Source of the DNA: Nitrospirales bacterium
Lineage (GTDB): Bacteria > Nitrospirota > Nitrospiria > Nitrospirales > UBA8639
Reading direction: 5' to 3'
Assembly: GCA_021604105.1 (NCBI GenBank)
Contig: BQIW01000049.1
Coordinates: 1 to 33,314, forward strand
DNA length: 33,314 nt
Shown: positions 1,330 to 27,925 of the stretch, piece after piece
Layout of the letters: every line of letters begins with the position of its first letter
Position numbering within the stretch: position 1 is the first letter of the stretch
The notes under the pieces: model-generated
Told to the model about the DNA's origin: nothing
Databases searched by the model: none
The model's input: only the letters and a program-made list of their open reading frames with translations
Position numbers and translations under genes: made by a program

Positions 1330-1520
1330 CCGGGGTTTCGACCCCGGACGACGAGCCACTTTTGTTTCGGCAAAAGTGGCCAAAACCATTGACGCCCCGT
1401 CTGGCTTTATTGAGGAGGAGGGACGCGAACTCTTTGAAGAGCGGCCCAACTCGCCTGGCTCAAACAAGGTCCGCTAGCGGATAAGAGCGTCCCTCCGGGA
1501 GCCAGCCTGCAGGCGTCGGA
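1330..1520 (+). repeat. Structured dispersed repeat, copy A
   Basis: First of eight same-direction copies. The order of stems is: I, CCGGGG/CCCCGG with a TTTCGA loop; II, GCCACTTTTG/CAAAAGTGGC with a TTTCGG loop; III, an outer arm GACGCC..CTGGCT paired with AGCCAG..GGCGTC; IV, GGAGGGACGC paired with GCGTCCCTCC; and a tip with CTCTTTGAAGAG. It begins 29 bases after the hicB stop. Confidence 0.9.
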
Positions 1521-1661
1521 TCAATGTGCCGCTGATTGGCACGCCGCCGCACTTGGCCGACCTGAAGGTGATGGGAAGGATGCGAAGATAGATGCTCAAT
1601 GACGAATGTCTGGAGGGCCGGAGGGGCGTCGCGTTTGGATGTTTGGAGTTGGGAGGGGCAC

Positions 1662-1690
1662 AGATCCTTCGCTTGGCCTCTGCCCTGAGC
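1662..1690. repeat. Degenerate copy of the ATCCTTCGC palindromic repeat
   Basis: It shares GGGCACAGATCCTTCGCT with the copy at 3203-3231, but its right arm (CTGCCCTGAGC) has drifted. It lies between repeat copy A and the end of the Fic gene. Confidence 0.4.
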
Positions 1691-1735
1691 GTCGCCGATA
1701 CACTTCCCGTGTTTCCCTTTTTTTATTCTTCTTCC

Positions 1736-2845
1736 TTATTGGCCGAGATTGATCTCATACCGTGTGCTGCGGCCGCCACCTACCGGAATGAGTGCGCCTT
1801 GTTCCACCAGGTTCTGTAAATCCCGTGTGGCTGTCGCTTTGGAGGTGTGGGCGATGGCCATATATTTTTTGGCATTCATCCCGCCTGTGAATCCGCTTGG
1901 GCCTTCTTCCAGGATCCGGCGCACCACCTCCATCTGTCGTGAATTGAGTTGGTCTTTGAGGCGATCGAAAAATTTCGTTTTTCGCAAGGTGAATTCAATC
2001 TGCTCTTCTGCCTGATGTTGCGCAGCCAGTGCCATGTGTACAAACCAGCTGATCCAGGGTGTGATGTGGTTGGATTGTTGGGCATTCTGCAAGGCTTCAT
2101 AATAGTGTGAGCGGTTCGCCTCAATGGCACGAGAGAGGCTGAGCAAAGCCGGCCGCCCGAGACCTTGCGATAATGCTTTTTCCGACAGGGCGCGCCCGAT
2201 GCGGCCGTTTCCGTCCTCAAATGGGTGGATGGATTCAAAATATATATGGGCGATGGCGGAGCGGATCAGGGGTTTTTTGATGTCCTTGGTGCCCTGTGGG
2301 CCGGTTTCATTAAACCAGGTGATGAACCGTGACATTTCTTTGGATACCCGGGTTGAGGGCGGGGCTTCAAAATGAATGCGGGGTTTGCCGATCGGGCCGG
2401 ATACCACCTGCATGGGTTCCGCATGGCTTCGCCATTTCCCGACGGTGATGCCACGACTCCCTTGCATGATCATGCGGTGCCAGGAACAGAGGGTGTCTTT
2501 GGTCAGCGCACCGGCATACCTGTTGCGTACATCCGTCATGAGCGCGGCAGCTCCTTGCGCCCGTTGATCCCGCACCTGTTCGCCGGGCTGTCCCAGTCCA
2601 AGATTTTTACGGATGGAGGAGAGGACATCCTGACGACTCAAATATTCACCTTCAATTTCTGATGTCTTGAGCGCTTCCACGACCATCATCTCGATGATGG
2701 CTTCCGTCTGCGTCTCTTCCGGTAATCCGCTCAATAGGCCGCTGGCTCTTCCTGTTTTTTCGGCGAATGCCAGTAAGGCGTCCTCAACGGTGGTGAGTTC
2801 GTATTGGAAGTCCGGCCAGTCCGGTTGTTGCCAGTTATAGGTCAT
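1736..2845 (-). CDS. Fic family protein with DUF4172 N-terminus and winged-helix C-terminus
   Basis: A Fic-domain enzyme of 369 residues, expected to transfer AMP (or another nucleotide part) from ATP to a protein hydroxyl group. The catalytic motif HPFEDGNGRIGR is intact near residue 205. An N-terminal inhibitory motif of the S/TxxxE-G/N type, TSEIEG, is present near residue 65, which makes it a self-inhibited class II Fic. The N-terminus (TYNWQQPDWPDF) matches DUF4172. The C-terminus (KYMAIAHTSKATATRDLQNL, then GGGRSTRYEI) is a winged-helix DNA-binding domain. The ATG at 2845 was chosen because the family N-terminus begins there; the open frame runs on upstream into repeat copy B but is not conserved. 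There is no Shine-Dalgarno sequence, and a -10 box lies only 6 bases upstream. Two palindromes sit directly in front of the gene, which suggests self-regulation through the winged helix (inference). Confidence 0.9.
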   Translation of the reverse strand: MTYNWQQPDWPDFQYELTTVEDALLAFAEKTGRASGLLSGLPEETQTEAIIEMMVVEALKTSEIEGEYLSRQDVLSSIRKNLGLGQPGEQVRDQRAQGAAALMTDVRNRYAGALTKDTLCSWHRMIMQGSRGITVGKWRSHAEPMQVVSGPIGKPRIHFEAPPSTRVSKEMSRFITWFNETGPQGTKDIKKPLIRSAIAHIYFESIHPFEDGNGRIGRALSEKALSQGLGRPALLSLSRAIEANRSHYYEALQNAQQSNHITPWISWFVHMALAAQHQAEEQIEFTLRKTKFFDRLKDQLNSRQMEVVRRILEEGPSGFTGGMNAKKYMAIAHTSKATATRDLQNLVEQGALIPVGGGRSTRYEINLGQ

Positions 2846-2917
2846 GAGCCGATTGTACCATACATTCGGCTCAATAGAGTGGAATAAAGTGAGCTGAATA
2901 GACCTTTTATTCGGCTC
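2846..2917 (-). promoter_or_regulatory. Twin palindromic operator and leaderless promoter of the Fic gene
   Basis: Two 27-bp palindromes of the same design lie here. At 2846-2872, GAGCCGATT and ATTCGGCTC are separated by 9 bases. At 2891-2917, GAGCTGAAT and ATTCGGCTC are separated by 9 bases. The first ends at the base before the ATG and covers an extended -10 box (minus strand TGGTACAAT; hexamer 2857-2852). With 6 bases between the -10 box and the ATG, transcription probably starts at or next to the start codon. A protein bound here would block the promoter. Confidence 0.65.
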
Positions 2918-2947
2918 AGCCCGTGCCGGGACATTTTTCAGTGCATG

Positions 2948-3140
2948 CCGGGGTTTCGCCCCCGGACGACGAGGTTCTTTTGTTTCGGCAAAAGGACCCA
3001 AATCCATTGACGCCCCGTCTGGCCTCATTGAAGAGGAGGGGCGCGAACTTTTTGCAGAGCGGCCCAACTCGCAAGGCTCACACAAGGGCCGCCGGATGCG
3101 AAGAGCGTCCCTCCTGGGAGCCAGCCGGCAGGCGTCGGAA
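2948..3140 (+). repeat. Structured dispersed repeat, copy B
   Basis: Same architecture as copy A. Stem I has TTTCGC in its loop. Stem II is slightly damaged (GTTCTTTTG against CAAAAGGAC), and stem III has one mismatch. It lies about 100 bases upstream of the Fic start codon. Confidence 0.9.
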
Positions 3141-3202
3141 CAAAAGGTGCTGTGTAGGGTGTGAAGGCGTGTTGTGAAACTGGCGTGAAGTGGTTAGGGC
3201 AC

Positions 3203-3231
3203 AGATCCTTCGCTGCCGCTCAGGATGACAA
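3203..3231. repeat. ATCCTTCGC / CAGGAT palindromic repeat, copy 2
   Basis: A hairpin-forming unit: ATCCTTCGC, a short loop, then CGCTCAGGATGAC. It is closely similar to the unit at 59-89 and shares 18 bases with the degenerate copy at 1662-1690. No gene is visible in 3141-3350 beyond this. Confidence 0.5.
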
Positions 3232-3350
3232 CCTGGAGAGAAAGGTTTGCCAACAACATGCGGGGATAGCGGAGCGGGAGAAGATAGAGGATCGATTGCG
3301 TATAGGGGCAATGACGCTTCAAGATTGCTGATCAGGCGGAGGCGGGATGT

Positions 3351-4289
3351 TTACCTTCTATTTTGTGAGACCGTCTGTCGGGTGGTGCGGCTCCTTCCCT
3401 GTGGTTTCCTCCGGTGTTTGTTGCCTCGTAGTATTTTGTTGTTGACCCATTCCTGTAATGCTATCCATACGGTATCCTCCCCGCTGCCGTCTCGCCTTGC
3501 CCCTTGCGCACACGTCAGAATCTCTTGATACGATCGCACATGGAACGGGACCTGATCCTGTCTGACCGTCCGGGTGAATGCGCTCCATTCAGGGGCTTTG
3601 ACCTTTTGGGCCATGGGCAGATCGGCGCTGTCCGCATAGACGATGACCACCGCCGGTTGCTTATTTTTTTGCCGGGCCAGCTTATAGGCCACGACGAGAG
3701 TGCGCATCCATTGGTAGGCCGGTCCCGCGAATGGACAGGGGTGGTAATCGGTTTGGGCATCGAGATGAAAGACTTTTGGAATGATGTCCCAATACTGAAT
3801 GTCTTTTTCGCTTAAGGCGCAACGACTGGTGATGTCGATTTCTCGCGTGGCTTGCTGCACATAGTTTCCGTTGCACGGGGCGGAGCCATTGCGCCGCACC
3901 GTTTGCGAGCACGCCCCTCCATCCTGCTCCGTAAATTTACATTCAAAAAAGATCACGGAATGGGGATTTTCCGCATAGACATCCACTTGGGTCGGGCGCG
4001 GTTCATTGAGCAATGACGGGCGCGCGCGCCATTCCAAGGTGATCTCCCAGGGACCGCCGGCCGGTACCCCCAGATTGGTTGCCAGGGCATCGAGAATCGC
4101 ATCGCAATCCGATGAAGTTTTGATGGTGCCGAAGACATCGATCGCTAAGGCTTGGGATGAATGCCTCACATGCGTATCGATAGCCCCTCCCCGGCCTTTG
4201 TGCCACGGAAATGTTTCCCATGGTTCACAGGCTCGTTGCGCAGGAGGGAAGATATTGCGTTCAAGGCGTGTTCTGGTGGCGTGGTCCAT
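3351..4289 (-). CDS. PD-(D/E)XK nuclease-like protein, PGN_0703-type putative restriction endonuclease
   Basis: A 312-residue protein with a recognisable PD-(D/E)XK core: QVDVYAENPHSVIFFECKFT gives Asp103, then Glu116 and Lys118. The cysteine segment that follows (GGACSQT and PCNGNYVQQ) matches my memory of the PGN_0703 family of putative restriction endonucleases, so I assign it there tentatively. Such enzymes are expected to cut DNA in the cytoplasm using Mg2+. No methyltransferase or specificity gene is next to it, so it may be a solitary nuclease. The C-terminus is very basic (HRRKPQGRSRTTRQ), which may bind nucleic acid. A GAAGG sequence lies about 9 bases upstream of the ATG. The gene sits alone between repeat copies B and C. 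Confidence 0.65.
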   Translation of the reverse strand: MDHATRTRLERNIFPPAQRACEPWETFPWHKGRGGAIDTHVRHSSQALAIDVFGTIKTSSDCDAILDALATNLGVPAGGPWEITLEWRARPSLLNEPRPTQVDVYAENPHSVIFFECKFTEQDGGACSQTVRRNGSAPCNGNYVQQATREIDITSRCALSEKDIQYWDIIPKVFHLDAQTDYHPCPFAGPAYQWMRTLVVAYKLARQKNKQPAVVIVYADSADLPMAQKVKAPEWSAFTRTVRQDQVPFHVRSYQEILTCAQGARRDGSGEDTVWIALQEWVNNKILRGNKHRRKPQGRSRTTRQTVSQNRR

Positions 4290-4549
4290 TGGTGTTGGCC
4301 TTCAGAGTAAACATAGAAATTGGAATGTGGTGTTTATTGTCTTTATCGGTGAATGGGAGATGAAGCTGAATGAGGGAGGGAAATGTTGGATGGATTTAGG
4401 GATGGGGGGGTTCATGTTGAATACGTGGATGCATTGGAAGATTGGCTGGGGCTTGGGCATGGCTGGGGTGATCGAATGAACTCTCCGAATGGGGAGACGA
4501 TAGGTGCCCGGTGATAAATGTCGTGAGGGATGCGAGCGTGCTATTAAGA

Positions 4550-4740
4550 CCGGGGTTTCGACCCCGGACGCCGAGGTCCTTTTCTTTCGGGAAAAGGACC
4601 CAAAACCATTGACGCCCCGTCTGGTCTCATTGAAGAGGAGGGACACGAACTCTTGAAGAGCGGCCCAACTCGCGGGGCTCAAACAAGGGCCGCTAGCTGC
4701 GAAGAGCGTCCCTCCTCGGGACCAGCCGGCAGGCGTCGGA
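4550..4740 (+). repeat. Structured dispersed repeat, copy C
   Basis: Stem II reads GGTCCTTTTC/GAAAAGGACC, with the closing G-C pair of other copies swapped to C-G. Stem III reads CTGGTC/GACCAG where copy A has CTGGCT/AGCCAG. Both changes keep the pairing. The preceding 4290-4549 holds no gene I can support. Confidence 0.9.
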
Positions 4741-4847
4741 TCAACAAGCTGCTTGGTGTTTGGCGCGATGTCCCAGGAAGTCGACTTACAGCTGATGCGA
4801 TAGAAGTTTGATTAATATTGTCGGAAAGATGGGAAGGTTTTTAGAGA

Positions 4848-5038
4848 CCGGGGTTTCGACCCCGGACGCCGAGGTCCTTTTCTTTCGGGAAAAGGACCCA
4901 AAACCATTGACGCCCCGTCTGGCCTCATTGAAGAGGAGGGACGCGAACTCTTGAAGAGCGGCCCAACTCGCGGGGCTCAAACAAGGGCCGCTAGCTGCGA
5001 AGAGCGTCCCTCCTTAGCGCCAGCCGCCGGGCGTCGGA
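4848..5038 (+). repeat. Structured dispersed repeat, copy D
   Basis: Nearly identical to copy C through stems I, II and IV, only about 110 bases downstream of it, so probably a recent tandem duplication. The upstream flank TCGGAAAGATGGGAAGG also resembles the flank of copy H (7966-7982), so the duplicated unit may be longer than the repeat itself. Confidence 0.9.
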
Positions 5039-5238
5039 TTCACTGCCCGCATGCTGATTGGTGCGGCGGCCCGGGTGATTGACCTGCAGGTGGCTTGGAT
5101 GACAGAGAAAAGCAACAAAACAAAACGGTGAAGGATAGCAGAGGGGTTGTGATGCTCGTCCCACAGGGAATGACGAACAGGGAGAGCGACTGCTCAATGA
5201 CAACTTTCGCCAGTAGCTACTGCCAATACGATCTTTTT

Positions 5239-5631
5239 TTAAGAGATTTTTTCTTCCGAATCTTCACTGGACTCACCAAGACGAACCTGGCGAAAATGTC
5301 CGGGACTCGCGACCGTGAAAAAGCCTTGTAGCTTCGGCTGAGATGAAAAGAAGATCTGCAAAAACGACATCTGCTCAATAGGAGATTGTCCGCCCAGACG
5401 AAACAAGACAATGCCGGGAGCAGACTGTTGCCGACAACGAAACACCAGTTCGCCAAAATCACGATCGAAAGTCAGCAACACACGAGATTGAGTTACGGCT
5501 TCGCGTAACACCTCCTCATCGGAAGCCGCCATTAGTGACTCCGCTGCATACAGGACATCGTGGCCGTGCGTTCGAAGTAATTTGACGATTGAGGCAGGAA
5601 AATTTTCGTCGGCAAGATACCGTTCACTCAT
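5239..5631 (-). CDS. DUF5615 PIN-like toxin
   Basis: A 130-residue protein of the DUF5615 (Mut7-C/PIN-like) family. It starts with the acidic signature YLADENFP and has a second acidic cluster, LLTFDRDFGELV, near residue 55; together these form the expected metal-binding site of a PIN-type RNase. The following segments (APGIVLFRL and the stretch after it) fit the family. It overlaps the upstream DUF433 gene by four bases (ATGA at 5631-5628), so the pair is translationally coupled in the order antitoxin, toxin. The last 15 residues are acidic and serine-rich and not conserved. RNase activity is inferred from the family. Confidence 0.85.
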   Translation of the reverse strand: MSERYLADENFPASIVKLLRTHGHDVLYAAESLMAASDEEVLREAVTQSRVLLTFDRDFGELVFRCRQQSAPGIVLFRLGGQSPIEQMSFLQIFFSSQPKLQGFFTVASPGHFRQVRLGESSEDSEEKIS

Positions 5632-5882
5632 GCGGACGTTCCGGTCGGCGGCAGCAAATAGAACCGTTCCTCCCGGAAGATTTCCGCAGCATACGCCAGC
5701 ACAGCACGAATGCGATCCTCAGTCAGGTTGGGGTAATTGTCACATAACGCAGTTTGGTCCCATCCTGCCGCCAGCAAATCAAGCACGAACTCTACAGACA
5801 GACGAGTTCCCTTGAGAGCTGGTTTTCCACCCAAAATTGCTGGATCGGACACGATGTAGTCTCGCCAATTAATGGCGGGCAT
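5628..5882 (-). CDS. DUF433 antitoxin
   Basis: An 84-residue protein with the DUF433 core: IVSDPAILGGKPALKGTRLS, then a helix-turn-helix-like stretch (EFVLDLLAAGWDQTALCDNY followed by PNLTEDRIRAVLAYA). DUF433 proteins are the usual partners of DUF5615 toxins and probably bind the operon promoter. The start is well fixed by AAGGAGG seven bases before the ATG. This pair is the one complete toxin-antitoxin module in the accessory region. Repeat copy E lies about 170 bases upstream. Confidence 0.88.
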   Translation of the reverse strand: MPAINWRDYIVSDPAILGGKPALKGTRLSVEFVLDLLAAGWDQTALCDNYPNLTEDRIRAVLAYAAEIFREERFYLLPPTGTSA

Positions 5883-6051
5883 GATGCTCCTCCTTAACCT
5901 AATCTTTCGGCAATAGGATGCGTGAGATTAAAAGTATAGCCAAGACCCTATGAGAAGTCACCAATCCAATTCCTTCCACCCCAGGCTCCCGTCTTTAATT
6001 GTAGCCATAAATCCGGGTTGCAAGATTGAGGGTGAAGAGAGAGTGTTATTT

Positions 6052-6242
6052 CCGGGGTTTCGGCCCCGGACGACGAGCCACTTTTGTTTCGGCAAAAGTG
6101 GCCAAAACCAGTAACGCCCCGTCTGGCTTTATTGCAGAGGAGGGACGCCAACCCGAAACAGAGCGGCCCAACTCGCCAGGCTCAAACAAGGGCCGCCAGA
6201 TGCGAAGAGCGTCCCTCCTGTGAGCCAGCCGGAAGGCGTCGG
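6052..6242 (+). repeat. Structured dispersed repeat, copy E
   Basis: It has a GCCACTTTTG/CAAAAGTGGC stem II and CTGGCT/AGCCAG in stem III, like copy A. The tip region differs (CAACCCGAAACAGAG in place of GAACTCTTTGAAGAG), so the small apical hairpin is lost in this copy. Confidence 0.9.
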
Positions 6243-6352
6243 AAGACAGAATGTTGATCATGAAAGAGGAAGGAGTGCAGACCTGACTAAAAATTAGAAA
6301 GATTTGTTATGGGAAGAAGGGAGGCTCTATCCGCTTTTCTTTTCAAGCCCAC

Positions 6353-7063
6353 TCACCACATGACCTCAAGCACTTCATGGTTTTGGTGGGGTTCCCCAAT
6401 GGCGGCCAGCCCCTGCCCGTCTGAGCTTTGGCCGTCGCGCACACACCACGCGAGACCTTTGCCCTCCAACTTGATGACGAACACCCCGCCCAGGAAATAA
6501 TTCACGAGCCAGGCGAACGTGGGAGTCCCCCCGGTTGTCGACGCCGACCAATAGTTGGCCGACTGCACGTTTTGAAACGGATTCCCATCCGGCAAACAGA
6601 GTCCCCCGCCTACGCACAGGATCGAATTGATATCCATGAGACTCGATAGTTGTTCCCGCATCGGCAGTGCCCAGCCTTTCCGTCCTCCCACCTCGCGGGT
6701 GGTGCAATGGCTGATGGCCCCGGCCCAGTTAAAGAAGGTCACCGCCGGGGAGGTTTCCCACACGACGCCCGTTTCCCGGTCACAGTAGGCAACGCCATAG
6801 AGGACAGGGACAAATCGATCTGCAGCAGAGAATGTCTGTCCCCCCATCTTCGAGACACCACACGGACCGATCGGACCCGGTGCCGAGGTGGCCGACCTGG
6901 TGTCGTTCAGGGTATCGATGTGCGCGTGCATGTCCGGCATCAGTTGGCTTGGCGTGTTCTCTGATGGTCCATGTTTGGCCCAGACCACTCCTGACAGAGC
7001 CAGACACATCGACAGCATCGCCGCCACCCCGACACCCGCAATGATTGCTTGCTGACCAAACAC
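6353..7063 (-). CDS. Secreted DUF1566 (Lcl C-terminal-like) protein
   Basis: A predicted exported protein of 236 residues. A signal peptide (FGQQAIIAGVGVAAMLSMCL then ALSGVVWA) precedes a mature region with the DUF1566 pattern: a tryptophan/proline motif WALPMREQLSSLMD, then NYWSAST, AWLVNYFLGG and the closing AWCVRDG. DUF1566 domains occur in surface or secreted proteins, often many per genome, and their function is unknown. The GTG at 7063 is preferred because AGGGGG lies just upstream and the signal peptide then starts properly; longer versions would run into repeat copy F. Five cysteines fall in the mature part and could form disulfides. The gene stands alone between copies E and F. Confidence 0.72.
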   Translation of the reverse strand: MFGQQAIIAGVGVAAMLSMCLALSGVVWAKHGPSENTPSQLMPDMHAHIDTLNDTRSATSAPGPIGPCGVSKMGGQTFSAADRFVPVLYGVAYCDRETGVVWETSPAVTFFNWAGAISHCTTREVGGRKGWALPMREQLSSLMDINSILCVGGGLCLPDGNPFQNVQSANYWSASTTGGTPTFAWLVNYFLGGVFVIKLEGKGLAWCVRDGQSSDGQGLAAIGEPHQNHEVLEVMW

Positions 7064-7486
7064 TCCGTACCCCCTGACATACAACCGACCATCCTCCTCA
7101 TGTTCAATCGTCCCCTGAGTTTGGAACGGGAACGCCGGAGGTTCTTTCTTAATATACTGGAGGAGCCATACGAATGCTATCATGTTCAACCGGCACGCGA
7201 TTACGGTAACAATGAAATGTGGCGAGCAGCCAGACCGAGGATGGAACCGGACAGTCTGAACTTTTTTGCTTTGGAATAAAAGGGGCACAAAAAAGGAGAG
7301 GTCGTACTCTGATGTGCAGGGAGCTTGGATGAGTGTATGAGATGAGGAGTGACTTTCTTTTTTGACGTTTGTTGATATCGAGCAATGGAGAGAATTTTTG
7401 TGATCCGGCTTTTTCGCAGGTATGTATGCCGGGTTTCGGCCGGGGAGTTGAGCGCTTGGGTGAGGCGTCTTTTTTTTTGAGGTCTT

Positions 7487-7680
7487 CCGGGGTTTCGTCC
7501 CCGGACGACGAGGTCCTTTTGTTTCGGCAAAAGGACCCAAAACCATTGACGCCCCGGCTGGCCTTATTGAAGAGGAGGGACGCTAATCCTGAGAGAAGAG
7601 CGGCCCAACTCGCCTGGCTCAAACAAGGTCCGCCAGATGCGCAGAGCGTCCCTCCTTTGGGCCAGCCGGCAGGCGTCGGA
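7487..7680 (+). repeat. Structured dispersed repeat, copy F
   Basis: It has GGTCCTTTTG/CAAAAGGACC in stem II and CTGGCC/GGCCAG in stem III. A short broken start of a further copy (GCCGGGTTTCGGCCGGGGA) lies just upstream at 7429-7447. Confidence 0.9.
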
Positions 7681-7759
7681 CAACGTAGAAGAGGAATTTT
7701 TAAGGGATTTCCATGAAAGTGGGAGAAGCGCAGGGAGGATAGAGAGGGGAAGAACGAGG

Positions 7760-7950
7760 CCGGGGTTTCGGCCAGGCAGCCGAGCCACTTTGGTTTCGGT
7801 CAAAGTGGCCAAACCCATTGACGCCCCGGCTGGCCTCATTGGAGGGGAGGGACGCGAACTCTTTGAAGAGCGGCCCAACTCGCCGGGCTCAAACAAGGGC
7901 CGCCAGATGCGCAGAGCGTCTCTCCCTGGGGCCAGCCGGCAGGCGTCGGA
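7760..7950 (+). repeat. Structured dispersed repeat, copy G
   Basis: Stem I is broken (CCGGGG against CCAGGC). Stem II is GCCACTTTGG/TCAAAGTGGC, where a T-A pair of copy A is a G-C pair. Stem III is CTGGCC/GGCCAG. Copies F, G and H are packed within 700 bases with no gene between them. Confidence 0.9.
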
Positions 7951-7993
7951 TGTCTACCAAACAATGTCGGAATGATGGGAAGGTTTTTAGATC

Positions 7994-8182
7994 CCGGGGT
8001 TTCGTCCCCGGACGCCGAGGTCCTTTTGTTTCGACAAAAGGACCCAAAACCATTGACGCCCCGGCTGGCCTTATTGAAGCGGAGGGACGCGAACTCTTTG
8101 AAGAGCGGCCCAACTCGCCGGGCTCAGACAAGGTCCGCTAAATATTAAGAGCGTCCCTCCCTGGGGCCAGCCGGCAGGCGTC
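7994..8182 (+). repeat. Structured dispersed repeat, copy H
   Basis: The last copy in the window. It has a perfect stem I with a TTTCGT loop, a perfect 10-bp stem II with a TTTCGA loop, a perfect stem III arm (CCGGCTGGCC/GGCCAGCCGG) and a perfect stem IV (GGAGGGACGC/GCGTCCCTCC). Confidence 0.9.
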
Positions 8183-8742
8183 CAACCATAACGAACCTTT
8201 CAGGGACTTCCATGAGAAAGGGTTTCCCCGGTCACACAAACAATTGCACCTCTTCCTATCCCACCCAGAGGCACGGGCAGCGTCAACAAATCTTTCCCGG
8301 TTTTCATGATTCATTCCTGGATGAGTGTGAATCAGGGTGCGCAATCAAAGCCCAGATCGTACATTAGGTCCCCCGATCCAACCATGAGTCCGGTGGCAGA
8401 TAAACCTGAGATACGCTGTAAATAGTCAGGCCCACCTTTCGAGGTGGGCCGCTGACCGCAAGCATCGCATGTTGATCGTCGATCGCGGTTGGGATTGATA
8501 CTCTATGAGTTTGTGTACCGGATGGAGCAGCCTTGAGCACCAAATACTCTGGCGGAAGGTGGCTGCACGGACAAGCGGGAACGTCGATGAACAGACAGGT
8601 GAGCGAAAACAGGGACCACTCAGGAGGCGAGTCAGCAGATCGACGGCAAACGATCCCTTCACACCACGTAGGCAGAACAAGAGAACCGGAGGATCTCCCT
8701 CAATTCCCGGTTGACGACCGGTTTTCTGTTCTTCACCACGTT
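8183..8742. other. Intergenic stretch, no gene supported
   Basis: No recognisable protein in any frame. It contains a perfect 9-bp stem with a TTCG tetraloop (GGCCCACCT/AGGTGGGCC, 8429-8450) without a T-run, and a small CCGGT/ACCGG hairpin followed by TTTTCTG at 8707-8726. It forms the border between the repeat-rich accessory region and more ordinary genes. Confidence 0.5.
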
Positions 8743-9264
8743 TTATGATTTGACCGAGGCTTCGTCCGAGGTGGCAATATCTTCTGCCCCCTCATTTTTG
8801 AAAATGGTTATGGCACGATCCGTCGTATCCGGATCATCTGAATGCACCGAAATCAGAATTTTGCCTTCTTTTATTTTTCCTTCATAGAGCCGGGCTTCAT
8901 ACTCCGGGATGCCCATGCCGACAAGCCCGCCGGCCAGGCCTCCCACGGTGGCGCCGACTGCCGCACCGCTTAACGCGGCCAAAACCGGACCGGCAGCTAC
9001 GAACGGACCAATGCCGGGAATCGCCAATGCTCCGATTCCCACCAACCAGCCCAGGGCTCCACCCAACACCCCACCTGCTCCGGCACCGGTGACGGCCCCC
9101 TCCGGCGCCTTCGTATGCTTTTCATGTGCTAAATCTTTGGCCCCATGAGTATCAGGAAAGAGCACCGAGATATCATCACTGGAGAAGCCGGCAATCTTGA
9201 GATTGTCAACGATTTTTTCAGCCTGCAAAAACGTTGTCGCAATACAAAAAACGGCTTTAGCCAT
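8743..9264 (-). CDS. General stress protein 17M/YflT-like protein with glycine-zipper core
   Basis: A 173-residue protein. The N-terminal 50 residues (FCIATTFLQAEKIVDNLKIA then GFSSDDISVLFPD) form the ferredoxin-like fold of the YflT/17M stress domain. Residues 58-118 are an extremely Gly/Ala-rich hydrophobic stretch (GAVTGAGAGGVLGGALGWLV onward) that looks like a membrane-associating glycine zipper. The C-terminus (EGKILISVHSDDPDTTDRAI) repeats the beta-alpha element. Proteins of this form are common in environmental bacteria; their role in stress is inferred from the family name only. AAGGAG precedes the ATG by 7 bases. The BON gene lies 34 bases upstream on the same strand, so the two may be cotranscribed. 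Confidence 0.72.
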   Translation of the reverse strand: MAKAVFCIATTFLQAEKIVDNLKIAGFSSDDISVLFPDTHGAKDLAHEKHTKAPEGAVTGAGAGGVLGGALGWLVGIGALAIPGIGPFVAAGPVLAALSGAAVGATVGGLAGGLVGMGIPEYEARLYEGKIKEGKILISVHSDDPDTTDRAITIFKNEGAEDIATSDEASVKS

Positions 9265-9298
9265 CTGATGCTCCTTTTCCGGGGGATGACGATGGTAT

Positions 9299-9715
9299 TT
9301 AGTCCTGTATCACTTCAAGCAGGTTGATGACATTGTTCAGGCCAACAATTAACGTGGCCATTTTCAAAATCCGCCTTCGCTCATCATGTGTCTCTACCGG
9401 TCCCCGTAAGGTGGCTTTTCCATCCAGCGTCACAATCTTTATGTTATGGGCATTCATCGATAAGGTTTTATCGGCCATCAGTGATTGCCGTATACGCCGG
9501 GTCAATTCCACATCCTCCTCACTGCCTTTGGACTGGTCGAAAGGGGTCAGTGTGGTGCCATCATTGTCACGAAGGTTTTTTTCAGAATTGGCCACTTCGG
9601 CTGAGGCGAGATCGAATGTGCCCGGAAGTGTTTGAGCAGAGACGAAGGGGGTATTCAGAAACCCTGCCAGAGCCAGACAGACCCACACGATCAAACGACC
9701 TGTTACGTGCTTCAT
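9299..9715 (-). CDS. Periplasmic BON-domain protein
   Basis: A 138-residue exported protein. Its signal peptide (HVTGRLIVWVCLALAGFL, then NTPFVSA before QT) is followed by a linker and a single BON domain at about residues 70-138: ELTRRIRQSLMADKTLSMNA, then the core IKIVTLDGKATLRGPVET and the closing VINLLEVIQD. BON domains (as in OsmY) bind phospholipid or stabilise membranes in the periplasm. The ATG at 9715 is chosen because GGG then lies at a workable distance; an ATG two codons upstream is possible. It is likely cotranscribed with the stress-protein gene 34 bases downstream, fitting an envelope-stress role (inference). Confidence 0.78.
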   Translation of the reverse strand: MKHVTGRLIVWVCLALAGFLNTPFVSAQTLPGTFDLASAEVANSEKNLRDNDGTTLTPFDQSKGSEEDVELTRRIRQSLMADKTLSMNAHNIKIVTLDGKATLRGPVETHDERRRILKMATLIVGLNNVINLLEVIQD

Positions 9716-10057
9716 AATCATCCCGTCATGAGGTGAAGAAAGTGTCCACCAACGGTCGGTGAACCTGGTCACATCCTGTTAATGGAAAAAATCGTCGTTT
9801 TCCCCCGCTCATTCGGCCTAGATTACCCGACCTCCGCCAAAAATGTCACCATGCCGGCGGTAGGAAAATACCCCAGTGTTGAGGGAGGAAAATTTCGAAA
9901 AAACAGCCATTTCAGGATGGGGAATTTGACGACATTCACGAGAACAGGAACCTTCTGACGATCTTCCCATCGACTCTCTCAACATTATGGGAATGTTGAA
10001 TAATAATAATTTCTAAGGGCCTATTCACCCACAGGCACGTTGCATATGATAGGCCTC

Positions 10058-10364: not shown

Positions 10365-11435
10365 ATGCGATTCCGGTTCTTCTCCTCAATCCTGCGCCAT
10401 GTTTCCAGGGGAACTTCTCCGGTCGCCCTCCTGCCGTTCCTCACTACACTCTGCCTCATCGTGCCGCCGGTATCTGCGCAATCGATGCAGCCGGTCGCGG
10501 ATCAGGGGACCTGGCACACGGCAAAGTCTGCACCGACGAAGCGGACTGAGGTGGCAGTCGCAACCCTGAACGGAAAGATTTATGTCGTGGGCGGGTTTGA
10601 GCAGCCCGGCCTGAGCAATTTCCTCAATCGTGGGATCACGCCTTTCCTTCAGGAATACGATCCGGCCACCGACCGATGGCGGTCCAGAGCGCCCATGCCG
10701 GTGGCACTGCACCACATGGGTATCGGGGTGATTGACGGCAAACTGTTTATCATCGGTGGATACAAGCAGTCGGGATTCAGCATCTGGCATGCCGTTGCCA
10801 CCGTGTATGCCTATGATCCAGCCATGGACACCTGGGCCGAGCGCGCACGCATGCCGACTCCTCGCGGGGCTTTGTCGGTGGCCCAGCACGACGGGAAGCT
10901 CTATGCCATCGGCGGCTACAACGGGGAGACCAATAGCGCGGCCGTTGAAGCGTATGATCCTGAGCGCGATGCCTGGACTGTCCGGGCACAACTCCCGACC
11001 CCTCGAGATCATCTTGCGGCCGCAACCATGTCGGGGAACATTTACGCCATCGGCGGACGCCTGAACGGCGACTATCGCCGGAATCTCGCGGTCATGGAAG
11101 TCTACGACCCCGTCACCGACCGCTGGTCTCGGGCCGCCGATCTTCCGACGGCCCGCAGCGGAATCACCGCCTCCGGAGTTGGCAATCGGATATATGTGTT
11201 CGGCGGCGAACAGGAGGAAGGGACCTTTCGTGAAAACGAGGCCTATGATCCGGCGCGTGACGCCTGGCAGGCTATGGCACCGATGCCGACAGGACGCCAC
11301 GGCCTGGGATCGGCGGTCGTCAATGACCGTATATACGTGATCAGTGGCGGGCCGACTCCGGGAGGCTCCTTTAGTGACAGGAACGAAGTGTTTACACCGC
11401 CGGAATCGGTACACTCTACAATCCCCAACCAATGA
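10365..11435 (+). CDS. Exported kelch-repeat beta-propeller protein
   Basis: A 356-residue protein. A signal peptide (LLPFLTTLCLIVPPVSA, cleaved near residue 38) precedes six kelch units. Each has the form K-I/L-Y-V-I-G-G, then a tyrosine-aspartate turn (YDPATDRW, YDPAMDTW, YDPERDAW, YDPVTDRW, YDPARDAW) and a MPTPR-like end. Six units fit a closed six-bladed propeller in the periplasm or outside the cell. Kelch propellers bind proteins or sugars, or form oxidase-like folds; nothing here points to a specific ligand. The ATG is fixed by the extended -10 box seven bases upstream. It is a single-gene transcript ended by the hairpin at 11471-11491. Confidence 0.85.
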   Translation: MRFRFFSSILRHVSRGTSPVALLPFLTTLCLIVPPVSAQSMQPVADQGTWHTAKSAPTKRTEVAVATLNGKIYVVGGFEQPGLSNFLNRGITPFLQEYDPATDRWRSRAPMPVALHHMGIGVIDGKLFIIGGYKQSGFSIWHAVATVYAYDPAMDTWAERARMPTPRGALSVAQHDGKLYAIGGYNGETNSAAVEAYDPERDAWTVRAQLPTPRDHLAAATMSGNIYAIGGRLNGDYRRNLAVMEVYDPVTDRWSRAADLPTARSGITASGVGNRIYVFGGEQEEGTFRENEAYDPARDAWQAMAPMPTGRHGLGSAVVNDRIYVISGGPTPGGSFSDRNEVFTPPESVHSTIPNQ

Positions 11436-24799: not shown

Positions 24800-26113
24800 T
24801 TAAGAATAGGCCCGTTCGTTGTGCTGACTGAGGTCCAACCCCATTTCCTCGTCCTGGGCGGAGACTCTGAGCCCCACCGTCACATCCACTATTTTAAGAA
24901 TGAGATAGGTCCCGATGACAGAAAACGCCAAGGTTACCAAAGCCAATACCACTTGTATACCAAACTGTCCGGGGTTCCCGAAAAAGAGACCCTGAGCTCC
25001 GATTGAGGCAAACAACCCGGTTGCTAAGATGCCCATAAACCCGCCGACGCCATGAATGCCCACGACATCAAGCGAATCATCATAGCCTAGTCGCATTTTC
25101 CACACGACCGCGATATAACAGACGGTGCCGGCAACCAGGCCAATCAAAAGGGCTGACATGGGCCCGATAAATCCTGCAGCGGGAGTCACTGTGGCCAAGC
25201 CCGAAACCACTCCACTGGCGACCCCTAACACGGTTGGTTTTCCCCTATGGACCCATTCAGCCACCATCCAACTGAGTCCCCCTGCCGAGGCAGCCGTGTG
25301 CGTGGCAAGAAATGCGGCCCCGGCCACCTCGTTGGCTCCGAGTGCGCTCCCCGCGTTAAAGCCGAACCACCCGAACCAGAGAAGTCCCGCACCCAGGACG
25401 GTCATAGGCAAATCATGTGGAGGCATCGGTTCTGAACCAAATCCCTTGCGCTTCCCCAGCATCACGGCACAGACCAACGCCCCGAACCCGGAAGAGATAT
25501 GGACGACTGCACCGCCGGCAAAATCCAGGGCTCCAAGCTTGGCCAACCACCCTCCACCCCACACCCAATGCGCCAATGGGGCATAGATCAGGAGAGACCA
25601 TAAGACCGCAAACAACAGTAAGGCTTTAAATTTCATTCGCTCGGCCACACTGCCGGTAATCAGCGCAACGGTGATGGCAGCAAACATGAGCTGGAAGAAC
25701 ATAAAGACTTGATGGGGCACCGTCGACGCATACACCGGACTCGGATCCAATCCCACACCATTCAGTCCCACCCAGGCTAGGCCGCCAATGACCCCGCCAA
25801 CATCCGGACCGAAGGCTAAACTGTATCCGCACAGCACCCAAAGCAGGCTAATGACACACAGAATCACCATCGTATGCATGATGGTCCCCAGCACATTTTT
25901 TTTGCGCACCAGCCCCCCGTAAAATAAGGCCAGGCCGGGAAGCGTCATACACAACACCAGCGCGGAAGACATTAAGAGCCAGGCCGTATCCCCCGTATCA
26001 ATTTTCAGCAAACCCTGTTCACCTGCCCAAACAGCCAATGGCTGAATCAAACTCAGGCCAAGCACCAGTCCGGTCAACCTTGCCAACATAGAGCGTGGAC
26101 TCAACAGATTCAT
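24800..26113 (-). CDS. amt: Ammonium transporter, Amt family (downstream copy)
   Basis: A 437-residue Amt protein with a cleavable-looking N-terminal segment (LVLGLSLIQPLAVWA) and about eleven membrane helices. Conserved features are DTAWLLMSSALVLCMTLPGL, ALFYGGLVRKKN, the twin pore histidines (in GGAVVHISSG and VVGIHGVGG), HWVWGGGWL, GFNAGSALG and the C-terminal tail DLSQHNERAY. It should conduct NH4+/NH3 inward and form a trimer blocked by PII when nitrogen is plentiful. GGAGGGG just upstream of the ATG at 26113 fixes the start. The glnB/glnK gene ends 44 bases upstream, so the two are surely cotranscribed. The two Amt copies differ enough to be old duplicates or separate acquisitions. Confidence 0.96.
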   Translation of the reverse strand: MNLLSPRSMLARLTGLVLGLSLIQPLAVWAGEQGLLKIDTGDTAWLLMSSALVLCMTLPGLALFYGGLVRKKNVLGTIMHTMVILCVISLLWVLCGYSLAFGPDVGGVIGGLAWVGLNGVGLDPSPVYASTVPHQVFMFFQLMFAAITVALITGSVAERMKFKALLLFAVLWSLLIYAPLAHWVWGGGWLAKLGALDFAGGAVVHISSGFGALVCAVMLGKRKGFGSEPMPPHDLPMTVLGAGLLWFGWFGFNAGSALGANEVAGAAFLATHTAASAGGLSWMVAEWVHRGKPTVLGVASGVVSGLATVTPAAGFIGPMSALLIGLVAGTVCYIAVVWKMRLGYDDSLDVVGIHGVGGFMGILATGLFASIGAQGLFFGNPGQFGIQVVLALVTLAFSVIGTYLILKIVDVTVGLRVSAQDEEMGLDLSQHNERAYS

Positions 26114-26157
26114 TTCCCCTCCTCGAGTAAACACGTGGTGTAGCCGGGTATCAATAG

Positions 26158-26611: not shown

Positions 26612-27925
26612 TTAGCCATACGCCCGTTCCCGGTGCTGGGTCAGATCACATCCGAGCACCTCATCTTCTCGATTGACGCGTAACCCGATCGTCCCGTCAA
26701 CGAGTTTAAGAATAAGGAAGGTGCCGACAAATGAGAACACCCAGGTCGCGCCAACACCAATGACTTGAATGACGACCTGCCCGGGATTCCCGAAAAAGAG
26801 ACCGGTGCCTCCTCCCATGCTGGCAAATAATCCGGTCGCCACAGCTCCCCAGGTGCCTCCGATTCCATGGATGCCAAGCACGTCCAACGCATCATCATAG
26901 CTCAGTTTATGCTTTAAAAATACGCCGAGATAACACACCACGCCTCCTCCAAAACCAATCACAATGGCCGCTATGGGTCCCACATAGCCGGCGGCCGGTG
27001 TGATGGACACCAGCCCAGCCACGGCGCCGCTGGCCGCACCCAACACCGTCGGCCTTCCCCGGTAGAGTCCCTCCACTCCGACCCAGGCTAACGCCCCGGC
27101 GGCCGTCGCCACATGAGTGGCCACAAAGGCACTCGCCGCAACCCCATTGGCTGCCAAAGCGCTGCCCGCGTTAAATCCAAACCATCCGATCCACAACAAA
27201 CTGGCCCCGATGACAGTAAACGGCAGATTATGGGGGCTCATATTGTCGGTACCATATCCGTGGCGTTTTCCTAAGACAAGCGCGCAGGCTAACGCCGCCA
27301 CACCCGAACTAATATGGACGACCGTCCCACCGGCAAAATCTAAATCGCCCAATTCCGCCAGCCAGCCACCTCCCCACACCCAATGAGCCAGAGGCGCATA
27401 CACGAACGTAACCCATAACACGGCAAATAACGCAAAGGCACTAAATTTCATTCGTTCGGCAATGGCTCCGCTAATGAGCGCCACCGTAATCGCGGCGAAC
27501 ATTAACTGAAACACCATGAAGGCCAAATGGGGAATCGTCGAACCTTCAAGCGGTTCGGGTCCCACCTCTGACAATCCCAACCACTTGAGTCCCCCAACAA
27601 CGCCCCCCACATCGGGAGCAAACGCGAGACTATAGCCCCAAAACACCCACACCACACTGACGAGACACACCGCAATAAAGCTATGCATCATCGTACTTAA
27701 CACGTTTTTACTGCGGACCATTCCGCCATAAAATAAGGCCAACCCGGGTATGATCATGGCCAATACCAAGGCCGAGGACATCAATACCCAAGCCGTGTCG
27801 CCGGCATTGAGTTGCGACGCTCCTCCATCCTCAGCCCACACGAACGAGCTCAAGCCGCTCAATACCAGGACAGACATGAATCCCGACAAAATGGCTTTAC
27901 CGGCTTTGTGATTATAGGCGTTCAT
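26612..27925 (-). CDS. amt: Ammonium transporter, Amt family (upstream copy)
   Basis: A 437-residue Amt transporter with a signal-like N-terminus (SVLVLSGLSSFVWA, then EDGG). Its motifs are DTAWVLMSSALVLAMIIPGL, ALFYGGMVRSKN, APLAHWVWGGGWLAEL, the two pore histidines (GGTVVHISSG and LGIHGIGG), GFNAGSALA and the C-terminal tail CDLTQHRERAYG. The tail is the part that couples subunits and PII in trimeric Amt channels. AAGGAG lies eight bases before the ATG. It follows the outer-membrane barrel gene by 24 bases and precedes glnK by 115 bases, so it is in the middle of one transcription unit. A long charged linker in place of one loop is not visible; length is normal. Confidence 0.96.
   Translation of the reverse strand: MNAYNHKAGKAILSGFMSVLVLSGLSSFVWAEDGGASQLNAGDTAWVLMSSALVLAMIIPGLALFYGGMVRSKNVLSTMMHSFIAVCLVSVVWVFWGYSLAFAPDVGGVVGGLKWLGLSEVGPEPLEGSTIPHLAFMVFQLMFAAITVALISGAIAERMKFSAFALFAVLWVTFVYAPLAHWVWGGGWLAELGDLDFAGGTVVHISSGVAALACALVLGKRHGYGTDNMSPHNLPFTVIGASLLWIGWFGFNAGSALAANGVAASAFVATHVATAAGALAWVGVEGLYRGRPTVLGAASGAVAGLVSITPAAGYVGPIAAIVIGFGGGVVCYLGVFLKHKLSYDDALDVLGIHGIGGTWGAVATGLFASMGGGTGLFFGNPGQVVIQVIGVGATWVFSFVGTFLILKLVDGTIGLRVNREDEVLGCDLTQHRERAYG

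Follow-up and report, generated by a model that had tools for sequence, protein, structure and literature searches.

A folded intergenic repeat as a candidate mobile element and recombination seam in defence islands of Nitrospirales

Introduction

How genes enter and leave the fast-turnover defence islands of bacteria is mostly unexplained. The window analysed here, a stretch of 33,314 nucleotides from a Nitrospirales bacterium (contig BQIW01000049.1 of assembly GCA_021604105.1), holds the right arm of such an island, in which a folded repeat appears to mark the seams between gene units. An earlier note, made from the sequence alone, had described the repeat and suggested either a structured RNA or a mobile unit of single-stranded DNA (ssDNA). 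The question raised by the locus is thus what kind of element the repeat represents. We consider it reasonably probable that it is a non-autonomous palindromic mobile element, the copies of which act as recombination seams for defence cassettes. The repeat holds its direction across dozens of copies, and since complete genomes that contain it yielded no integron-type integrase, the seam hypothesis is directly testable.

The repeat copies and their fold

Eight copies of about 190 bp were found in the window where the earlier note had placed them, all on the plus strand and together spanning 1330-8184:

1330..1521, plus strand: copy A, consisting of hairpin A, hairpin B and the long compound hairpin C with the tip motif
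2948..3139, plus strand: copy B
4550..4740, plus strand: copy C
4848..5038, plus strand: copy D, 96% identical to copy C, starting 107 bp past it with no called gene between
6052..6243, plus strand: copy E
7427..7486, plus strand: hairpin-A-like extra module before copy F, belonging to a class of 5' flanks with 12 members at 5 places
7487..7680, plus strand: copy F
7759..7950, plus strand: copy G, with an altered hairpin A and G-C in place of T-A in stem II
7994..8184, plus strand: copy H, the outermost of the arm, adjoining the right border of the island

The pairwise identity of the copies ranges from 0.81 to 0.96, C and D being the closest pair. Hairpin A is formed by CGGGG..CCCCG and hairpin B by GGTCCTTTTG..CAAAAGGACC, while hairpin C is built from the stems GACGCC/GGCGTC, CTGGCC/GGCCAG, GGAGGGACGC/GCGTCCCTCC and GCGGCCC/GGTCCGC and ends in the tip AACTCGC-NNN-GCTCAAACA. 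The consensus fold of the eight copies comprises 51 pairs with standard pairing in 397 of 408 cells. Two-sided changes were detected at eight pairs, among them the joint exchange between GCCAC/GTGGC and GGTCC/GGACC in stem II that the earlier note had pointed out. Its observations that the closing pair is C-G instead of G-C in copies C and D and that one T-A pair is replaced in copy G are correct as well. The listed variants of stem III (CTGGCT/AGCCAG, CTGGTC/GACCAG and CTGGCC/GGCCAG) are also present, although the note passed over the incomplete closure of this stem in copies B and D, where one pair each is broken (C-A and C-C, respectively). Copy B furthermore retains one T-G pair in stem II. 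When folded as ssDNA, copy F is far more stable than its shuffled versions on both strands (z-scores of -6.63 on the plus strand and -6.05 on the minus strand).

Covariation in the larger set of copies

The own genome and the genomes G010, G014 and G018 of the same genus provided 181 matches, of which 123 were near full length and 115, with 175 to 205 bases and no N, entered the covariation alignment. Changes along the branches were derived from a FastTree tree with parsimony states at the 53 pairs of the consensus fold, and the 3' partner was shifted by 1 to 6 or 8 columns as a control. Double changes from one Watson-Crick pair to another were found at stem pairs on 68 branches, compared to 0 to 7 in the slid controls, with hairpin B carrying 40 of the 68 and hairpin A none. 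These counts support the proposal that the compensatory changes stem from a folded form, either because it is selected or because copying passes through it, and the original observation of a folded repeat was right and understated. The check in the manner of R-scape that had been suggested gave a divided result, as the strict G-test with a null model preserving tree and substitutions reached E<0.05 at only one of the 53 pairs (columns 27/50), in contrast to the excess of double changes.

A fold that acts as RNA transcribed from one strand should favour decay to G-T on that strand. The 115-copy tree has 69 branches with decay of a pair to G-T and 76 with decay to A-C, as counted without a positive control, and since both mispairs arise equally often nothing in these counts favours RNA. 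The decay leans towards the minus strand in inner hairpin C and towards the plus strand in outer hairpin C, and these opposite leans may hide structure in the summed count.

Distribution of the repeat

The own genome contains at least 49 matches to one copy (40 of 87 first-look candidates were scored), and all 20 genomes of the genus of the window (G000-G019) match the repeat. Therefore the copies do not go back to a single duplication. The related concern of the earlier note, that one recent duplication might explain all copies, also fails with regard to their relationships: among 78 full-length copies from seven arrays in four genomes, 39 have their closest relative in another genome, 33 within their own array and six at another place in their own genome.

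In total, the repeat was matched in 22 of 40 genomes (own and relatives). Its distribution is regarded as patchy beyond the genus because only two of four genomes from other genera of the family and none of 16 from the other families of the order match, and because the exact tip pattern occurs in five of 148 genomes sampled across the phylum, four of which belong to the family of the window. Copies of the same layout are present in the Nitrospirales records L083, L092 and L104. At four selected places of G157, from another genus of the family, the copies form inverted pairs 1.0-1.7 kb apart instead of direct arrays (L234, L235, L236, L237).

Insertion events

A discrete insertion was detected in the sister genus g4, in which the copy of G113 in L231 forms a unit of 238 bp. 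Among 14 g4 genomes the site is filled in two (G113, G178), empty in eight (G183, G185, G180, G182, G186, G187, G022, G181) and not judgeable in four. In all eight genomes with an empty site the overlap between the flank matches is exactly 9 bp, and in the filled site CGACATCTT and CGACTTCTT flank the unit. Judged by this comparison, transposition is evident for one g4 event, from which we infer it for the family. Together with the patchy presence this clean insertion favours the mobile unit of the two possibilities named by the earlier note; the structured RNA gained no support.

One g4 intergenic site has 18-33 bp between the flank matches in four genomes, 313 bp in G113 and, in G022, the first bases of a copy only. 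For the single copy on contig C2 of the own genome, the homology of the relatives stops at the neighbouring gene and no empty site was found. Different repeats, e.g. of the TGTCATTCCCGC type, occupy one g4 intergenic site depending on the species (L299, L300, L301, L303), which is perhaps a hotspot for several repeat families.

Architecture and gene content of the islands

In G010, G014, G018 and contig C58 of the own genome the islands consist of a left arm of minus-strand copies, a copy-free stretch and a right arm of plus-strand copies. The window represents one such arm with all copies in plus direction. Along seven arrays including the window, 117 copies (fragments merged) change direction nine times in 110 steps, compared to 47 changes in 131 for the open reading frames (ORFs) of 75 aa or more that these stretches contain, and runs of up to 14 same-direction copies occur within an arm. 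That the orientation of the copies is set by the direction of replication was considered and set aside, two islands of G018 each showing minus and then plus copies.

Full copies of the same direction enclose 48 intervals. An ORF of 80 aa or more is present in 43, and in 35 of these 43 the longest ORF runs in the direction of the reversed copy. In the window the genes between the copies are all encoded on the minus strand and are followed by those of the right border:

1736..2845, minus strand: unit gene for a Fic/DOC protein with DUF4172
3351..4289, minus strand: unit gene for an REase-ARP nuclease, with a homologous unit in G018
5239..5631, minus strand: unit gene with DUF5615, which we take to be PIN-like and of toxin type
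5628..5882, minus strand: unit gene with DUF433, presumably the antitoxin-type partner
6353..7546, minus strand: unit gene for a protein with an Lcl C-terminal domain
8743..9772, minus strand: genes with a YflT domain and a BON domain, right border of the island
10365..11435, plus strand: gene for a Kelch-repeat protein, right border, also bordering the G018 island

As the longest frame of the Lcl-domain gene overlaps copy F, its true start probably lies further in. In their right arms, G010 and G014 have frames of 312 aa, the same size as that of the REase-ARP gene, matched by size only. The order of YflT, BON and Kelch genes at the outer edge recurs as like-sized frames in G010 and G018, with the Kelch gene being confirmed in G018 only. 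The edge of the left array in G010 is marked by an HD-like gene (below the cut-off), a UPF0047 gene and a trypsin-PDZ gene.

Defence systems occupy the copy-free stretches. The one between the arms of C58 encodes GmrSD, a NERD helicase, an Eco57I methylase, SNF2 and DEAD/MZB proteins, the latter four of which are presumably DISARM-like. Type I restriction and PtuA genes were found between the arms in G010 and Dsr1 in G018. In both G010 (L063 13203-13676) and G018 (L066 6018-6560), the first plus copy of the right arm is directly preceded by a cytidine-deaminase-like gene. Elsewhere in the window, the adjacent minus-strand genes 24800-26134 and 26612-27925, which share repeated stretches 1.8 kb apart with 71-83% identity, are probably tandem paralogues.

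Shared gene units and mosaic copies

The genomes share 25 pairs of homologous intervals, which are not independent as some units recur. The flanks were compared over 80 bp beyond the bordering copy, taking as background the 95th percentile of random pairs (0.62 upstream and 0.59 downstream). The upstream outer flank remained at background in 23 pairs (exceptions 0.72 and 0.68), and the downstream outer flank in 20 (exceptions 0.60, 0.62, 0.79, 0.80 and 0.90). Units of gene and site are hence found in differing surroundings between genomes, which is a feature of integrons and of clusters of attC sites lacking integron-integrases (CALIN). The Fic unit of the window, for example, also occurs in the left arm of the G014 island, i.e. 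in opposite arms of different islands, and its homology extends from 3 bases past the upstream copy to about 60 bases short of the downstream copy.

The first and last 60 bases of the interval exceed the background in only about half of 17 pairs, a subset of the 25, because several interchangeable modules of 40-60 bp adjoin the copies. Since the outer flanks mostly differ, and since the upstream and downstream copies of shared intervals are uninformative, being about as alike as random copies, the break is placed in or near the copies and not at one base. Within the copies all four combinations occur at 1680 of the 2211 possible pairs of variable columns, and the mean r2 amounts to 0.153, 0.096, 0.044, 0.056 and 0.028 over five distance classes from 1-4 to >120 bases. 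Judging from this pattern, the copies evidently recombine and are mosaic.

A wider family sharing the tip

The repeat is a local clade of a cross-phylum family in which a small hairpin (CTTTTG..CAAAAG) is joined through CAAAA to a long hairpin, the tip of which is conserved. A scan of the genome collection with the pattern CNAACTCGCNNNGCTCAAACA yielded at least 116 stretches. Among the matches listed, 100 of 120 with flanks fold into a hairpin with at least 15 pairs spanning the motif, which served as the cut, compared to 15% of shuffled flanks; with at least 20 pairs the numbers are 75 of the 120 and 5%. A laxer cut of at least seven spanning pairs (111 of the 120 matches listed) was dropped, as it was passed by 40% of shuffled flanks and by 7 of 21 matches on viral contigs, i.e. 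by no more of these than of shuffled flanks. The triloop is TNC in 93 of the 111 listed matches passing this laxer cut, which reads GNA when the strand is reversed. As DNA, the mini-hairpin GC-GNA-GC is exceptionally stable.

According to the record titles the members of the family belong to at least eleven phyla, several of them represented by one or two matches, and include Variovorax, Rhodoferax, Luteimonas, Parabacteroides, Flavobacterium, Clostridia, Gastranaerophilales, Treponema and Magasanikbacteria. Among the matches listed that could be assigned to a group by title and had flanks present, a hairpin followed by CAAAA or CAAAG precedes the tip in 38 of 99 and follows it, as a control, in one. 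This upstream hairpin was detected in 11 of 22 matches in Burkholderiales, 17 of 23 in Nitrospirota, 5 of 7 in Bacteroidota, 4 of 11 in Gammaproteobacteria and 1 of 4 in Cyanobacteriota, and in none of 23 in Bacillota and 9 in the remaining groups. Both neighbouring genes could be assigned for 71 of the listed tip copies. The two genes are convergent around 26 of these copies, tandem around 40 and divergent around 5. A blastn search with a window copy gave no match in plasmids and phages, whereas a Variovorax copy matched two plasmid records and no phage, and a Parabacteroides copy three plasmid records.

By eye, the tip was seen inside attC-looking sites in Treponema (L101 6807-6827, with the outer ends GTCTAAC / GTTAGGC) and in Aliivibrio (L099 2331-2351, TAACAA..GGCGTTAG), the latter failing the hairpin cut. 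Integron sites may carry this tip as well; a simple attC scan confirmed neither L101 nor L099.

The occurrence of the tip in Pseudomonadota, Bacteroidota, Bacillota, Nitrospirota and others, with no Rfam entry found, suggests that a large class of intergenic elements may so far have escaped description, and no title or abstract among the listed matches in the open-access literature describes the repeat. It is conceivable, if unlikely, that the tip defines a cross-phylum class of DNA hairpins, with GC-GNA-GC of the reversed strand between conserved TGTTTGA and GAGTT flanks, which is read by a widely shared factor and has here become an integrase-free cassette platform of defence islands.

Proposed mechanism and alternative explanations

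If the repeat is a non-autonomous mobile element, its first copies would have arisen by transposition that relied on a trans-acting enzyme, which was not found. Homologous recombination between the copies would subsequently delete, duplicate, invert and import the gene units between them, and such exchanges would keep one direction per arm. The left-minus/right-plus layout may persist because deletion, duplication and inversion between copies preserve it, as the geometry implies. The island would thereby turn into an integrase-free store of cassettes, in which restriction and toxin-antitoxin genes are kept along with further genes for defence. The fold would act at the DNA level, as a cruciform or ssDNA hairpin, in the spread of the element and not as RNA.

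Several observations weigh against this proposal. Homologous recombination is deduced from mosaicism and geometry, and the identity of copies within an array is only slightly higher than between arrays (0.82 compared to 0.79-0.80). The sole clean target duplication is one event in the sister genus, outside the clade of the window, and 9-bp direct repeats at the ends of copies are not enriched over mismatched flank pairs: matches at 8 of 9 positions reach 0.236 compared to 0.209 for the 123 copies of the genus of the window, and 0.136 compared to 0.139 for 22 g4 entries, which include at least two copies entered twice. The ends are known for the 238-bp unit only, and by eye they show no terminal inverted repeat. 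Furthermore, the comparison of L233 with G180 revealed a 4-base overlap around a composite insert of 342 bp, and a copy in G183 (L283 4683-5016) lies between two diverged versions, about 45 bp long, of the 3' end of a gene, as though the insertion had doubled this gene end. Because these two events differ from that in L231, one uniform insertion mechanism is not shown. Finally, no transposase was found, the search having covered tyrosine recombinase, Y1 transposase, reverse transcriptase and serine recombinase, and not the DDE and IS110 transposases.

With respect to these enzymes, matches to PF00589, the general tyrosine recombinase model, were detected in G010 (3), G018 (5), G000 (7), G014 (5), G008 (6), G021 (11) and G022 (3). 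In G010 and G018 two matches each are strong, which we take to be XerC and XerD; the remaining ones in these two genomes are short frames or contain stops. Most of the other carriers have more matches. The Y1 transposase (PF01797) is absent from the carriers G018 and G022 and present in the non-carriers G020 and G023. Reverse transcriptase is absent from the carriers G000, G010, G018, G008, G021 and G113, and serine recombinase from the carriers G008, G021, G022 and G113. None of the four enzyme families thus tracks the carriers. Copying through ssDNA is neither shown nor excluded, no Y1 transposase being common to the carriers.

These results also bear on a cassette system proper, in which the folded repeat would be an attC-like site cut as ssDNA by a trans-acting recombinase and each unit would comprise promoter, gene, 3' region and reversed copy. 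The bounding of the units by copies, the direction of the longest ORF in 35 of 43 intervals, the single direction per arm and the strong fold on both strands agree with such a system. However, R boxes of attC type (RYYYAAC / GTTRRRY) close the fold in none of 123 copies, as they do in none of the shuffled copies, and with the general PF00589 model neither G010 nor G018 yielded an integron-type integrase, the integron-specific model not having been searched. Taking furthermore into account that these genomes have just two strong tyrosine recombinases each, that the carriers have no Y1 transposase, serine recombinase or reverse transcriptase in common, that the breaks lie within the copies or up to about 60 bp away instead of at a single base, and that the copies are mosaic, a cassette system of this kind seems unlikely.

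A structured RNA in the 3' untranslated regions, ending or stabilising the transcripts of defence genes, would account for the reversed copies downstream of the arm genes, for the rarity of copies between divergent genes (5 of 71 among the matches listed) and for the compensatory changes. We nevertheless regard it as quite unlikely, since G-T and A-C decay are equally frequent, terminator-like sites show only a weak excess (15 compared to 10.1, sd 3.2, in shuffles), the direction of the copies is steadier along an arm than that of the genes, and elsewhere the copies between tandem genes do not clearly favour either strand (23 compared to 17 among the matches listed). Rfam likewise offers no relevant family: at the gathering score there was no match in the window, and 18 related loci gave T-box and tRNA only. 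A permissive search returned weak matches to mir-188, ncS025 and cyano_tmRNA only. The match to ncS025, a small RNA of Burkholderia that likewise has two hairpins and then CAAACC, covers its full length at window positions 8005-8077 with 18.9 bits, the gathering score being 46.

The cassette-like appearance might also arise from plain intergenic repeats of the repetitive extragenic palindromic (REP) type in variable regions, through neutral insertion and selection against insertion into genes. Presence or absence by species in intergenic stretches that hold other repeats too and the preference for 3' ends would fit. This explanation appears very unlikely, as it leaves unexplained both the uniform direction of as many as 14 copies within an arm and the shared units with mostly differing outer flanks. 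We therefore prefer a mobile element whose copies serve as recombination seams.

Comparison with known systems

Stem-loop repeat families named by species were reported in a survey of 40 bacterial genomes in 2008 (PMC2267715). As far as their description in the parts of the survey available to us goes, these families resemble the repeat in having a common predicted fold, in the mostly intergenic location of the structured ones and in the double hairpin of some, whereas none is said there to span phyla or to bound defence units; the comparison is one of descriptions only.

With miniature inverted-repeat transposable elements (MITEs) the repeat shares the short, non-coding, palindromic form and, in one event, a discrete insertion with a 9-bp target duplication. 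It differs from them in that the 238-bp unit lacks a terminal inverted repeat, that its centre rather than its ends is conserved and that target duplications are not general. REP sequences with their bacterial interspersed mosaic elements (BIMEs), and REP doublets forming hairpins (REPINs) with the REP-associated tyrosine transposases (RAYTs), are similarly found in dozens per genome, intergenic, palindromic, rare between divergent genes and mosaic with other modules. In contrast to these, the repeat is 190-240 bp long, has three domains and occurs in the carriers G018 and G022 without a Y1 transposase. REP families are, to our knowledge, bound to lineages, whereas the tip of this repeat is conserved across phyla.

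In arrangement the repeat resembles integrons and CALIN, which also contain tandem same-direction folded sites between small toxin-antitoxin and defence units, with the site located after the gene. Unlike their sites, the repeat has no attC R boxes and, in G010 and G018, no integron-type integrase was found with it; it shows a mirrored two-arm layout, a length of about 190 bp, three hairpins and mosaic copies. By the features tested the array is not an integron, but it works like a set of cassettes.

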